The translations under genes and the position numbers were made by a program. From Halalkalicoccus sp. CG83 (GTDB lineage: Archaea; Halobacteriota; Halobacteria; Halobacteriales; Halalkalicoccaceae): 64,000 bases of DNA. The first letter of the stretch is position 1. Each line of letters starts with the position of its first letter. The notes under the pieces are model-generated. The model was not told the origin of the DNA. It made no database searches and was given only the letters and a program-made list of their open reading frames with translations. This document shows, one piece after another, positions 6,274 to 16,314 of this stretch. The stretch is from assembly GCF_037081715.1 (NCBI RefSeq), contig NZ_JAZDDH010000003.1, positions 124,001-188,000 on the forward strand, written 5' to 3'.

Positions 6274-7635
6274 ATGGGATACGTCATCAAGATGCCGAAA
6301 TTAGGATTAGAAATGGAACAGGGGACGCTGCTCGAATGGCATCTAAGAGAAGGAGATTCCATTGAGGAGGGGGAGACGATCGCAGAAGTGGAATCGGAGA
6401 AGAGCATCGGCGAAATCGACGCCCGCGAGAATGGTGTTCTACGGTTTATCGGGCTCGAAGAAGGCACGACCGTTCCGCCAGGAACGCCGATCGGCATCGT
6501 TGCGGATGCTGACGAGGATATTGCCGACCTCAAATCCGAGTTCGATATTACCGATGAGCAACCCGTAGAACCAACCGAATCAGAAGCTAACGCCGAGGAA
6601 CCGGCCGATGAGTCCTCTGCGTCGGCTACTAATGAGGCCGAGATCTCTGATTCCGCTTCGGCCTCAGTGGATCTGAAGGCCTCACCAAGAGCAAAGCGTC
6701 GCGCCGACGAACTCGGTGTTGATATTACCGGAGTAGAAGGATCGGGACCTCAAGGAGCAATCACCGTAGACGATGTTGAAGCCGTTGCAGATACGGAGAC
6801 TGAGAGAGAAGCAGCGACCGAGCAAATGAAGGCCTCTCCTCGGGCAGAACGCCGCGCAGAGGAGCTTGACATCGATCTCACGGAAATAGACGGTTCGGGA
6901 CCAGAGGGGGCGATCACAGCTGATGACGTCGAAGACGTCGTTGAAGCAGCCTCTCAGGAAGCTTCACCTAATGAGGAGACAGCCGACGAAGTCAAGGCTG
7001 AACGAGATGCAACGATTTCCGGAGAACGCTACCAAACTACCACCTATGTAGCTCGCGGTAAGGAAGCGGACACGCTCATCGAGACGACTAACATGGCGGC
7101 GAACGCGTTCGAGTTCGATGTCGATGTGAGTGACGTGCTCCTTCTTGCGCTCTCTTCGGCTCTCAATGATCATCCGAAATTCAATGCAACGTTTGAGGAT
7201 AACACGCATCATCTCCACGAACACCAGAACATCAAGATTGTAATCGATGATGTCGAACGGGAAAGGAATGAGTTTGTGCTCTCGAGCGTCGATGAGCGGA
7301 CGTTTACTGATATTGCCGAGACGTCTCACGATCGACAGGCACCGATGCACGACGATCGCTCCGGTAGCTATGTAACGTTCATACTCGCGAACGGAGCAGA
7401 CTGTAAAGACGTGCAAAGCATTGTTACAGCGCCAGCGGTCGCTGGGCTGGTTGTGAATCATTCGTATCGTCGTGCGAGCCCGACCGCAAACGGCGTCAGT
7501 TTCAGTCGGTACCTCCGGGTATCGCTCGCGTATGACTCACGTGCGATCGGGGACAGGGATGCCGATGCGTTCCTCGAAAGCCTGCTTGAGCATATTGAGG
7601 GAGCTCCTGAACTTGTACTCCAGTCGTATCGATGA
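6274..7635 (+). CDS. E2-like dihydrolipoamide acyltransferase with two subunit-binding domains and an altered active site
   Basis: A 453-residue 2-oxoacid-dehydrogenase E2-like protein. The lipoyl domain spans 1-80, with Lys43 in ESEKSIGEIDA as the lipoylation site. Two peripheral subunit-binding domains follow (about 134-170 and 186-221; KASPRAKRRADELGVD and KASPRAERRAEELDID). A C-terminal acyltransferase-like domain covers about 250-453. In active E2 enzymes this domain carries HxxxDG near the end. Here the region reads YDSRAIGDRDADAFL, so the His is Ser422 and the DG is inverted to GD. The first part of the domain is also shortened. It may be a structural core rather than a transferase. 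It converges on the acoX gene and shares its first half with the lipoyl-hydrolase at 10916-12427. Confidence 0.85.
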   Translation: MGYVIKMPKLGLEMEQGTLLEWHLREGDSIEEGETIAEVESEKSIGEIDARENGVLRFIGLEEGTTVPPGTPIGIVADADEDIADLKSEFDITDEQPVEPTESEANAEEPADESSASATNEAEISDSASASVDLKASPRAKRRADELGVDITGVEGSGPQGAITVDDVEAVADTETEREAATEQMKASPRAERRAEELDIDLTEIDGSGPEGAITADDVEDVVEAASQEASPNEETADEVKAERDATISGERYQTTTYVARGKEADTLIETTNMAANAFEFDVDVSDVLLLALSSALNDHPKFNATFEDNTHHLHEHQNIKIVIDDVERERNEFVLSSVDERTFTDIAETSHDRQAPMHDDRSGSYVTFILANGADCKDVQSIVTAPAVAGLVVNHSYRRASPTANGVSFSRYLRVSLAYDSRAIGDRDADAFLESLLEHIEGAPELVLQSYR

Positions 7636-10915: not shown

Positions 10916-12427
10916 TTATTGGTTGAACGCAGCCCGAAGTTCACCAGCCAGATCATCAATAGCCTCGCGAGCACGGTCCCAATTGGGGTCGTCGAGCATC
11001 ATAAGGAAGCCATGAATCATATCCTCGTATTCAAATCGTGTCACGGGAACGCCAGCCGCTTCGAGTCGGTCCGCATACGCCTGACCTTCATCACGAAGTG
11101 GGTCGAATCCCGCTGTAAGTACGGTCGCTGGCGGAAGATCAGCGAGGGTGGTTGTCCGTAGTGGTGAGGCATACGGATGACGACCATCGCTCGGTGTTTC
11201 GAGGTAGTCGTTCCAGAAGCGCTTCATGTCATTGCGCGTGATGAAATAGCCCTTTGCGTTCTCGGCGTATGACTCCGTGTCGAACTGATGGTTCGTCGCT
11301 GGGTAGATCAAGAGTTGATGAGTGAGAGGAGGCCCTCCTCGATCACGCGCCATAAGCGCAACCCCCGCTGCAAGCGTTCCACCCGATGAATCACCACCAA
11401 TAGCGAGTCGGTTGGGATCGATCGCTATCTCATCGAGATCCGGACTTTCGGCGAGCCACTTGGTCGCCGCATAGCAGTCTTCGAGGCCCGCTGGGAACGG
11501 GTTTTCCGGAGCACGACGATACGCGACTGAAGCAACGATACAATCGGCAGCGTTCGCCAGTACGCGACACGTGAGGTCGTACGTCGCTAGATCACCCGCT
11601 ATCCAGCCACCGCCATGGAAGAAGGCAAGCGTTGGCTGCGAATCGGTAGTGTCGTCCGTTCCGTTGGTGGGGACGTAGATACGGATCGGTATCGATCCGT
11701 TCGGTCCGTCGATCTCCGTCTCGATCACCCGGCTAACCGGTTCTGGCTTCCCTTCCGGAACCGCGAGCTCGCGGTAGGTCTCGCGCGCATCTTCGATCGG
11801 CAATCGATACAATGGTGGCACACCGGCCTCAGAGAGCTCATGCAACAGGTCTTCTACTTGTGGGTGAAGTTCCGCTGCTGCGGTATCATCAGCTGTTGTG
11901 GTTGTGGTGTCGACAGCAGCCTCGACATCATCCACAGTAATCGCGTTTTGAGGACCGGTCCCGTCGATAGTCGTAATATCTACACCGAGTTCGTCGGCGC
12001 GACGCTTTGCTCTCGGTGAGGCTTTCACGTCCGACGATTCCGTTCTCGATTCGGTTTCCTCTATGTCGGCTTGTCCGTCCGCTGATGTAGCTGGTTCGCC
12101 ACTCGTCTCATCACCAGCCGTTTCAGTCTCGGTTGTCGCTGTGGCCTCTTCGTTCTCGAACTCGGCTTTCAGATCGGTGATATCCTCCTCGGCGTCCGCA
12201 ACGATGGCAAGCGGGGTTCCCGGTGGAACGGTCGCCCCTTCTTTAAGGTCAATGAACCGTAGAACGCCGTCCTCGCGGGCGTCGATTTCGCCGATGCTCT
12301 TCTCCGATTCCACCTCTGCAATCGTCTGTCCCTCTTCGACGGTCTCGCCCTCTTCAACGTACCACTCGAGTAACGTCCCCTGTTCCATCTCCAAGCCTAG
12401 CTTTGGCATCTTGACGATATATCCCAT
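10916..12427 (-). CDS. Lipoyl domain / subunit-binding domain / HSL-type alpha-beta hydrolase fusion
   Basis: A 503-residue fusion. The lipoyl domain (1-80) has Lys43 in ESEKSIGEIDA, and one subunit-binding domain lies at about 134-170 (KASPRAKRRADELGVD). After a Thr/Asp linker comes a full hydrolase of the hormone-sensitive-lipase (Abhydrolase_3) type: oxyanion motif HGGGW at 271-275, nucleophile Ser347 in GGDSSGG, Asp442 in DPLRDEG and His472 in IHGF. In Pseudomonas-type aco operons AcoC is a lipoyl domain fused to a different alpha/beta hydrolase, so this may be the haloarchaeal counterpart. An upstream ATG at 12529 exists, but MGYIVKMPKLG at 12427 is the clear domain start. It lies directly upstream of E1 alpha. 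Confidence 0.9.
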   Translation of the reverse strand: MGYIVKMPKLGLEMEQGTLLEWYVEEGETVEEGQTIAEVESEKSIGEIDAREDGVLRFIDLKEGATVPPGTPLAIVADAEEDITDLKAEFENEEATATTETETAGDETSGEPATSADGQADIEETESRTESSDVKASPRAKRRADELGVDITTIDGTGPQNAITVDDVEAAVDTTTTTADDTAAAELHPQVEDLLHELSEAGVPPLYRLPIEDARETYRELAVPEGKPEPVSRVIETEIDGPNGSIPIRIYVPTNGTDDTTDSQPTLAFFHGGGWIAGDLATYDLTCRVLANAADCIVASVAYRRAPENPFPAGLEDCYAATKWLAESPDLDEIAIDPNRLAIGGDSSGGTLAAGVALMARDRGGPPLTHQLLIYPATNHQFDTESYAENAKGYFITRNDMKRFWNDYLETPSDGRHPYASPLRTTTLADLPPATVLTAGFDPLRDEGQAYADRLEAAGVPVTRFEYEDMIHGFLMMLDDPNWDRAREAIDDLAGELRAAFNQ

Positions 12428-12780: not shown

Positions 12781-13179
12781 CTAATCCTCTGCAAGCGATA
12801 CCGGTTCTGCTGGCGTTATACCCTGCTCTTGATGATATCTTTCAGACAATGCTTGTTGATGTTGACGGCGGCGCTCCTTTGCTTTCTCACTCATCATCTC
12901 CTCGCGCCACGAGAGTCCTGCGTCAGTCTCTAAACTCACCCTCTCCACTCCCGGGAGGTTCCCGACACGATCCTCGATTTGCTCGATGAAATACCCAACC
13001 ATCATACACGATGGGGAGGTGATGCGTAATTCAATGTGGACTGTCTCCCCGTCGATCTCAATCGACTTGAGCAGCCCCATCTCGACGATACTGATATCGG
13101 TACCACGCGCCTCGCTACAGGGATCGACGATCTGATCAAGTTGCTCGCGAACCGTGAGCGGTGATGGATCGGTTCCCAT
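12781..13179 (-). CDS. MIP18 / DUF59-family metal-sulfur cluster assembly protein
   Basis: A 132-residue protein of the SufT/MIP18/PaaD-like group that helps build or deliver Fe-S or other metal centres. The domain (about 10-95) shows LDQIVDPCSEARGTDISIVEMGLL and the conserved loop ITSPSCMMVGYF, with the key Cys at the usual position. LPGVERVSLETDAGLSW is the second conserved strand. The final ~35 residues are a charged tail. It begins 3 nt after the amidohydrolase stop, so the two are translated together. Its client protein is not obvious. Confidence 0.8.
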   Translation of the reverse strand: MGTDPSPLTVREQLDQIVDPCSEARGTDISIVEMGLLKSIEIDGETVHIELRITSPSCMMVGYFIEQIEDRVGNLPGVERVSLETDAGLSWREEMMSEKAKERRRQHQQALSERYHQEQGITPAEPVSLAED

Positions 13180-13182
13180 CTT

Positions 13183-14280
13183 TTAGTACACCTCTGCGGC
13201 GGCATTCGTTGTTGAAAACGGATCCGCAAGTCCTTCGTCTCCAGTCTGTCGACTGAAGTCGTCATCTGCTAATCGGTTACGGGCAGCCTCGATGTCCAGT
13301 CCAACGAGATCAGCGTAGTTACGTCCGAGGAGATCTCGTTTGTGTTCGTCGGTGATCTCAGGCATATCGCCGAAAGCAATCCCACGTTGAGCGACGTCCT
13401 CCGGCCACTCGAAATCACGAAGCGCCTCTAGCTCTGGCTGCGGGTGGTAGGCCATCGCCGCCGATCCCCAGTACATACGATCGAGGACAGCCTCGCCCCC
13501 AATCGAGATGATCTTCGCCAGGGTCTCGGCGAACGCTCGTTCGTTTGCGGTTAGCTGGATGCCAAGTGTCTCCATGTTAATGTGGAGATTGGGGAACCTG
13601 GCCATCTGCCAGGCAGTCTCCTCGGTAAAGGCGAGTCCGCCATGGACCAGTCCAAAATCGAGTTCAGGGAAGTTCGCACAGGCTTCGTCAACGTCGCCAG
13701 GGTGGTACGGATCCCGAGGGACCGGTCCGAAGGGGATTGATTTGTGGACCTCGATCATATCGATTCCGAGCGATTTTGCCTTCTCAAACACGGGATACGC
13801 GACCGACTCGTCATCCATGCGCCATCCCGTATGATAATCCTCGCCCCAGTGTGAGGGATAGAGCTTCAGTCCAGTTGGATCAAGGGCATCAACTTGCTCC
13901 TCGAGTTCCTCTTCCCAGCCATCGCGTAAAGGATCGATATTGGCAAACGTGAGAAACCGCTCCGGGTACTTCTCGATGGCCTCCTCCGCGTTTTCATTGG
14001 CGGTTAACCCGTCATGGTAGGCGTACAACGGGAGTGCCTGGAACGTCGCCATGTCCGTATCGCTCTCGAGAAAGAGCATATTGGCCGTCTCCTCAACCGA
14101 CCAATTGCGGATGAAGCCTTCACGTGTGACCCGATAGCCCGGTGGTGAAGCTTGCTCAACCGCACCGTAGATCATTTCGGTGATCCCCTGTGCGTGTTGT
14201 TCGTTCCGGTAGTTCGATGGTGCGAGGTTATACGCATGCACGACTGCATCGAAGATGAACGTCTCTTCTAGGTCGATCAT
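13183..14280 (-). CDS. Amidohydrolase-family (TIM-barrel) protein
   Basis: A 365-residue member of the amidohydrolase-2 group (ACMSD/uracil-DNA-type barrels), which bind one divalent metal and hydrolyse or decarboxylate small acids. Visible elements are FDAVVHAYNLAP in place of the usual DxHxH strand, FANIDPLRDGWEEEL, PTGLKLYPSHW, IDMIEVHKSIP, DFGLVHGGLAF and RMYWGSAAMAY. The first motif keeps one His only, so metal binding may be unusual. It leads the minus-strand operon DUF59 - lipoyl-hydrolase - acoA - acoB - acoX and diverges from the SDR gene. From memory, amidohydrolase plus DUF59 pairs also accompany binuclear-iron propane monooxygenases in actinobacteria; no monooxygenase is in this window. 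Confidence 0.75.
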   Translation of the reverse strand: MIDLEETFIFDAVVHAYNLAPSNYRNEQHAQGITEMIYGAVEQASPPGYRVTREGFIRNWSVEETANMLFLESDTDMATFQALPLYAYHDGLTANENAEEAIEKYPERFLTFANIDPLRDGWEEELEEQVDALDPTGLKLYPSHWGEDYHTGWRMDDESVAYPVFEKAKSLGIDMIEVHKSIPFGPVPRDPYHPGDVDEACANFPELDFGLVHGGLAFTEETAWQMARFPNLHINMETLGIQLTANERAFAETLAKIISIGGEAVLDRMYWGSAAMAYHPQPELEALRDFEWPEDVAQRGIAFGDMPEITDEHKRDLLGRNYADLVGLDIEAARNRLADDDFSRQTGDEGLADPFSTTNAAAEVY

Positions 14281-15243: not shown

Positions 15244-16314
15244 CTAGGGCTGAACCATAATCTTCACTTGGTCACTATCAGCGTTTAAGAGGCGTTCGAA
15301 CCCGTTCTCAACGATGCCCTCGAGCTGGATACGATCGGTGATCAGGGGTTCGGGATCGAGTCGGCCGTCCGCGAGCATGTCGATCACCATTCCGTACTCT
15401 TCGCCTGAGCGTGGACCACCGAGATACGCAAGCGTTCCAGTCAGGGTCCGCTCACCGAGTACAAGCTCGTTCGGATGTGTCCTCACATCTTCCTCCCAAA
15501 TGCTGACGATCGTAACGGTTCCACTCGGTCGGGTACTTCCAATCGCGTCATTGAACGTGGTTTCGATCCCTGCAACCTCGAATGCGATGTCGGCCCCACC
15601 GCCGGTCTCGGAGTTGATGTGATCCACTGCGTTCGTGTCCGTCGGATCGATCACGTCATCAGCGCCACATGCGTCTGCACGCGACCGTCGGGCGGCGCGA
15701 GGTTCAGAGACGAAGAGCCGTCCAGCGCCGGCTGCCTTCGCACACTGGATGACCGACAATCCGATGGGGCCGCTTCCGAACACTGCAACTGTGTCGCCAG
15801 CTTGGAGTCCAGACCGGCGGACAGCGTGAAGGCCAACAGCCAGTGGTTCGACCAATGCACCCGCTTCAAGTGATACGCCGTCCGCGAGCGGCACGGCTTT
15901 CTCGGCGTCAACGACGATGCTTTCGGCGAAGCCACCTCCACCGCCAGAAAGACCGATGAACCCACCCACATCACAAAGATGGTAGTTCCCCTCTACGCAC
16001 TGGCGACACTCTCCACAGTAGAGGATCGGATTAACAGCGACTTGGTTGCCTTCCTCAAGATCAGTTACTGACTCACCGATTTCGGTAATAGTACCACTAA
16101 ACTCGTGTCCCATCGTGATAGGGGCGGATTCGTTTGACACTGGATGTGGTTCTTCGGCTGGAATGAAAATAGGACCCGCCGCGTACTCATGCAGGTCGGA
16201 GCCACAGATACCGCACGAATCGATCGCAATTCGGACCTCTGTAGGTCCAACGGTCCTTGTTTCGGTTTCTTCGATTCGAATCTCTTCTTGCCCGTGATAC
16301 GTTGCAGCACGCAT
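15244..16314 (-). CDS. Zinc-dependent (R,R)-2,3-butanediol dehydrogenase-like enzyme
   Basis: Medium-chain dehydrogenase, 356 residues, expected to oxidise 2,3-butanediol to acetoin with NAD. Catalytic zinc ligands appear in CGICGSDLHEY (Cys34) and GHEFSG (His70, Glu71). The structural zinc site is the CGECRQCVEGNYHLC cluster. The insert GPIFIPAEEPHPVS between the first Cys and GHE is typical of butanediol dehydrogenases and absent from most MDR alcohol dehydrogenases. The Rossmann loop is VFGSGPIGLSVIQ. It converges on the SDR gene with 35 nt between stops. Product acetoin would feed the adjacent acetoin dehydrogenase. Confidence 0.8.
   Translation of the reverse strand: MRAATYHGQEEIRIEETETRTVGPTEVRIAIDSCGICGSDLHEYAAGPIFIPAEEPHPVSNESAPITMGHEFSGTITEIGESVTDLEEGNQVAVNPILYCGECRQCVEGNYHLCDVGGFIGLSGGGGGFAESIVVDAEKAVPLADGVSLEAGALVEPLAVGLHAVRRSGLQAGDTVAVFGSGPIGLSVIQCAKAAGAGRLFVSEPRAARRSRADACGADDVIDPTDTNAVDHINSETGGGADIAFEVAGIETTFNDAIGSTRPSGTVTIVSIWEEDVRTHPNELVLGERTLTGTLAYLGGPRSGEEYGMVIDMLADGRLDPEPLITDRIQLEGIVENGFERLLNADSDQVKIMVQP

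Follow-up and report, generated by a model that had tools for sequence, protein, structure and literature searches.

A hormone-sensitive-lipase-type hydrolase (HSL) of an esterase family has probably taken over the acyl-removal step in an acetoin-dehydrogenase-like complex of haloarchaea, as judged by sequence comparison. It was found in a window of 64,000 nucleotides from Halalkalicoccus sp. CG83 (contig NZ_JAZDDH010000003.1, positions 124,001 to 188,000), which is the whole stretch of DNA that we analysed. In complexes of this type, the acyltransferase active site of E2 is generally regarded as the part that never changes. In 25 distinct loci it is missing while the complex itself has been retained, and its loss goes along with the presence of the esterase-family enzyme.

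The fused protein and its operon

The earlier note had described a single protein with a lipoyl domain, a subunit-binding domain (PSBD) and a complete HSL, and this was borne out by the intact 503-aa frame, Pfam and NCBIfam (Table 1). Translation from the ATG at 12427 to the stop that ends at 10916 on the minus strand met no internal stop or shift, in line with that note, which saw no shift in the linker. Both modules by which an E2 is recognised, the lipoyl domain (with its lipoyl lysine at K43, VESEKS) and the PSBD, were found by Pfam, and the acyltransferase (CAT) domain PF00198 gave no Pfam match in the fused protein. Abhydrolase_3 (PF07859) spans residues 268-475 (2.8e-74, 249.8 bits). 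The hydrolase half scored 417.7 bits against the model of LipP1-family HSLs (NF058653, cut-off 350), which places it in that family, and its closest solved structure is Est8 (PDB 4ypv, 7e-82). The HGGGW motif and the catalytic triad Ser347, Asp442 and His472 are present as claimed, and the triad is kept in all 34 aligned haloarchaeal homologues. The modelled structure of the fused protein had a mean pLDDT of 65.7, with the lipoyl domain and the lid too poor for use.

Table 1. Positions of the fused protein, its domains and the neighbouring features in the window.
Feature	Positions	Strand	Evidence and remarks
Fused lipoyl-PSBD-HSL protein, 503 aa	10916..12427 (stop included)	-	Translation; Pfam; NCBIfam LipP1 above cut-off
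Lipoyl domain, aa 5-75	12203..12415	-	PF00364 Biotin_lipoyl, 1.5e-16
E1/E3 subunit-binding domain (PSBD), aa 134-169	11921..12028	-	PF02817 E3_binding, 2.5e-12
HSL-type alpha/beta hydrolase, aa 186-503	10919..11872	-	PF07859; 4ypv match; triad
E1 alpha (AcoA-like), 349 aa	9771..10820	-	PF00676, 7.3e-94
E1 beta (AcoB-like), 333 aa	8770..9771	-	Transket_pyr / Transketolase_C (Pfam)
AcoX-like NAD-kinase-fold protein, about 334 aa	7769..8773	-	PF01513, 2.4e-10
E2 with lipoyl domain, two PSBDs and degenerate 2-oxoacid acyltransferase core, 453 aa	6274..7635	+	Pfam
Lost active-site motif DSRAIGD, aa 421-427 (active E2s: DHRxxDG)	7534..7554	+	Alignments
Zn alcohol dehydrogenase	15244..16314	-	Recurs near dead-core/HSL loci

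An artefact that joined two genes was rejected as unlikely, given the unshifted frame, two more fusions and the position of the joint, which coincides with the start of the free-standing HSLs (MATELHPQ...). The two additional lipoyl-HSL fusions, each in another archaeal MAG (L107 and L098, contigs that also appear as L040 and L041), occupy the same operon position. In L098, as in the window genome, a lipoyl domain and a PSBD are fused to the HSL; L107 has a lipoyl fusion in which runs of N hide part of the PSBD region. In the 392 genomes of the order, most of the closest relatives of the hydrolase are unfused, about 320 aa long and encoded beside the same E1/E2 genes. The fusion, found in 3 loci, is a secondary feature, and we rejected it as an essential one since the HSL beside the E2 is free-standing in most loci.

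The N-terminal modules of the fused protein and of the operon E2 are 68% identical over 177 residues (80% for the lipoyl domains), as if the fused module had been duplicated from the front end of the operon E2. The lipoyl domain of the window protein is closest to that of its own operon E2, on a lipoyl tree that is poorly resolved. The HSL tree requires 2 changes for the fusion, and a single origin gave an AU p=0.144. Read as a Rosetta-stone link, the fusion to the lipoyl domain and PSBD suggests that the HSL is physically tied to the complex.

The E1 alpha, E1 beta and AcoX-like genes lie downstream of the fused gene on the same strand, and the E2 gene faces them. The E1 proteins belong to AcoA/AcoB-like families and scored below the PDH E1 cut-offs in NCBIfam, where no acetoin-specific E1 model matched the window E1. 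Almost every complete locus has the NAD-kinase-fold gene at this position; it is a putative AcoX by fold and position. The Zn alcohol dehydrogenase, possibly a butanediol dehydrogenase, belongs to a family found in 6 loci with a degenerate E2 and 1 with an intact E2, with 568-588 bits between distant genera. Directly upstream of the fused gene lies a tight gene pair (12781-14280, minus strand) that encodes FeS_assembly_P/DUF59 and Amidohydro_2 proteins and brings monooxygenase operons to mind.

The degenerate E2 core and the operon HSL

The position of the catalytic HxxxDG motif of active E2s reads SRAIGD in the operon E2. Its match to PF00198 reached 44 bits (cut-off 23) and began only at profile position 47, whereas its intact relatives are matched from position 5 on, at 204-235 bits. 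The catalytic histidine is absent in all 25 distinct cluster E2s accompanied by the HSL. By Foldseek, the modelled E2 (mean pLDDT 75) still resembles CAT domains, with a probability of 1.00 and a target-normalised TM of about 0.6-0.7. With the CAT-like fold, the motif loss and the weak PF00198 match taken together, the core is best read as folded yet catalytically dead.

The unit HSL-E2-AcoX-E1b-E1a is conserved in many genera. We scanned Halobacteriales by E2 lipoyl motifs, with the HSL disregarded, which gave 56 loci, and the counts were taken from those with a readable core. The HSL was found in all 13 loci with a dead core and in the flanks of none of the 40 loci with an intact core (DHR[IV]VDG), these flanks being mostly 5-10 kb per side and a few shorter. 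Wherever a locus allowed both features to be read, a dead core came with an operon HSL and an operon HSL with a dead core (Fisher p 2e-12, calculated with 38 intact loci and ignoring relatedness). Of the 392 genomes, 21 have a match of at least 227 bits to the dead-core model, and the next match falls to 161 bits; since this model was trained partly on the same genomes, the evidence lies in the score gap and not in the scores. An HSL of at least 386 bits was found only in the same 21 genomes and in G132, a MAG whose contig ends inside E1a. Three whole genomes with a dead E2 have one HSL each of 385-397 bits, and the HSL paralogues of six other whole genomes, whose E2 loci are intact, reached at most 329 bits. 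The link may have arisen once and then spread by block inheritance or transfer, so the genome counts overstate the independent evidence.

Dead cores form one clade (support 100*), and so do the operon HSLs (support 100/99*). Their E1 partners do not, as forced monophyly costs 188 log-likelihood units (AU p=5e-35). On the E1 tree the core state changes at least 3 times and the HSL switches along in 3/3. The dead E2 and the HSL therefore behave as a cassette that is exchanged for an active E2. The independent contrasts amount to 3 pairs on starred branches, all in agreement (sign test p=0.25), and with so few of them the argument rests on consistency rather than on a corrected probability. The fully supported sister of the window E1, 85% identical to it, comes from Halococcus thailandensis, a species that has an intact E2 and lacks the operon HSL. 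Such similarity suggests that the E1 reaction is probably the same in both loci.

About 23 of the 38 intact E2s of the locus end in an OsmC-like domain, which was never seen with the HSL here. PF02566 was confirmed in L062:9854-11830, L063:9977-11815 and L079:9926-11968, and the others were recognised by a C-terminal motif. Dihydrolipoamide is the reductant of OsmC/Ohr peroxidases, so such an intact E2 may have a built-in peroxidase.

By neighbour clustering, 7 dead-core loci have a member of an E3-like dihydrolipoyl (lipoamide) dehydrogenase family (522 bits against TIGR01350 for the tested member), 8 have an IclR regulator, 3 a lipoyl-synthase-like protein and 3 an LplA-like one. None of these families appeared in the sampled intact loci, and as ORF picking was crude in these GC-rich loci, the absences are weak evidence. 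By the same crude ORF picking, no working CAT was seen in the dead-core loci that hold E3 or lipoylation genes. Near two dead-core loci (L043:11657-14075 and L047:7172-9608) a dihydrolipoyl dehydrogenase adjoins a lipoyl-synthase-like radical SAM protein, and this pair is seemingly a dedicated lipoyl gene set. In the window genome, intact CAT proteins occur only at two distant loci, as a canonical E2 (C1:48690) and as a separate CAT (C1:1647605). One of these proteins is encoded next to its own E1 genes and an E3; the other (L124:6585-7328, C1:1647605), an open frame of 248 aa whose acyltransferase domain is intact, has E1-like genes beside it, as read by eye.

Role of the HSL in the complex

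The probable explanation, which we favour, is that acyl release in an acetoin-dehydrogenase-like complex with a catalytically dead E2 core is performed by the HSL. E1 alpha/beta (TPP) would cleave acetoin or a similar substrate and hand the acyl group to the lipoyl arm, which would deliver it to the HSL. The active-site serine would form an acyl-enzyme and pass the acyl group most likely to CoA or possibly to water, after which E3 would reoxidise the lipoyl group. The degenerate E2, which retains its lipoyl and docking domains, would be left with the roles of carrier and scaffold. The HSL is a separate protein in most species, while in the window genome the duplicated lipoyl-PSBD module would give it an arm and a docking domain of its own.

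Among the conserved proteins, the HSL alone is a candidate for releasing the acyl group. Its action on acyl-lipoyl, with CoA as the acceptor and acetoin as the substrate, is what we infer. A role as acyl transferase or acyl-lipoyl hydrolase inside a dehydrogenase complex had been proposed in the earlier note for the fusion. The role gained strong genomic support, from the neighbouring dead E2 core and the exceptionless pairing with the HSL, and the fusion, found in three loci, is not its essential feature. The two intact CAT proteins at distant loci count against our explanation, as they could in principle serve the complex.

Transfer from the acyl-serine to CoA would leave the overall reaction as it is in the intact loci, and the close similarity of the E1s speaks for this. 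HSL enzymes are typically esterases, and we saw no sequence feature that marks the operon HSL clade as a transferase. Should the HSL act as an acyl-lipoyl thioesterase, free acid would be released and the substrate oxidised without acyl-CoA. The pairing of dead core and HSL also speaks for this, and the LipP1 HSLs are a family of hydrolases with a water-activating triad. However, near-identical E1s pair with CoA-type E2s in relatives, so a hydrolytic swap would lose the energy-rich thioester, and no acetate-activating enzyme was among the annotated recurrent neighbours in a partial survey. Simple hydrolysis is the main rival, and we regard it as less likely than transfer.

It is more doubtful still that the HSL acts upstream, freeing the E1 substrate from an ester or trimming a by-product, with the fusion merely co-localising it. 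HSLs commonly act on small esters, and the neighbouring alcohol dehydrogenase, SDR and amidohydrolase genes give the locus a catabolic look, but neither the restriction of the HSL to loci with a lost E2 active site nor the lipoyl arm with an intact lysine on the HSL would be explained. Least probable is that the degenerate E2 is an E3BP-like structural partner, assembling with an active E2 or CAT from another locus, and that the HSL is an accessory: the core of human E3BP also lacks the catalytic histidine and the window genome does hold an intact canonical E2 and a separate CAT, but these two are distant in sequence and adjoin their own E1 or E1-like genes, and the consistent pairing of HSL and dead core would be left unexplained.

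If the esterase transfers the acyl group to CoA, as we favour, central metabolism would have recruited a hydrolase independently here. The function of the haloarchaeal E1 system would then be open to direct tests, as nature provides relatives with either state of the locus.

Comparison with known systems

The fused protein shares its hydrolase domain with LipP1-family HSL esterases such as Est8 but differs from them in being joined to a lipoyl domain and PSBD, and the operon HSLs form a separate clade tied to a dehydrogenase operon. With canonical 2-oxoacid dehydrogenase E2s (PF00198) the system has in common the lipoyl and PSBD modules, an operon with E1 alpha/beta and a CAT-like core fold. 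In contrast to them, the core here lacks HxxxDG and a match to the first ~45 profile positions, and the lipoyl-PSBD-HSL protein has no CAT domain at all.

A PSBD joined to an alpha/beta hydrolase is also found in enzyme 202 (PDB 7QJM), of which only the PSBD matched the fused protein. It is a peptidase-like hydrolase that was tested on PET, and the parts of that article that we consulted consider no dehydrogenase complex for it (Erickson et al. 2022, PMC9772341). In Haloferax volcanii, the oadhAB3 genes (HVO_0669/0668) encode proteins with 54%/47% to Bacillus AcoA/AcoB, and their substrate is listed as unidentified (PMC8305020). They probably represent the intact-E2 version of the locus; unlike the window locus, the Haloferax loci of our survey have an intact DHRIVDG core and no HSL. 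In the literature that we searched on haloarchaeal acetoin dehydrogenase or lipoyl-hydrolase E2s, which covered few subscription papers, the system was not described.

The nearest functional analogue may be AcoC of the Pseudomonas/Cupriavidus acetoin dehydrogenase, in which a lipoyl domain is joined to an alpha/beta hydrolase that replaces CAT, in an acoXABC-type gene neighbourhood. Both of these traits recur here. The NCBIfam model of AcoC, NF011457 (PRK14875), gave 79.9 bits against the fused protein (cut-off 307), with the match confined to residues 4-168, that is, to the lipoyl-PSBD part. The hydrolase half, an Abhydrolase_3/LipP1 enzyme, was not matched, in agreement with the earlier view that AcoC has a hydrolase of another subfamily. 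The further claim that AcoC lacks a PSBD is doubtful, because the model aligns through the PSBD (residues 4-168 to profile 5-122). The archaeal system also differs from AcoC in that it has retained a separate E2 with a dead core and usually encodes the hydrolase as a protein of its own. We tentatively suggest that a clade of archaeal lipoyl-dependent complexes may have dropped the E2 acyltransferase chemistry, kept the fold as a scaffold and recruited the HSL as a cassette-borne acyl-serine transacylase, which would make it a second, independent non-CAT solution beside AcoC.
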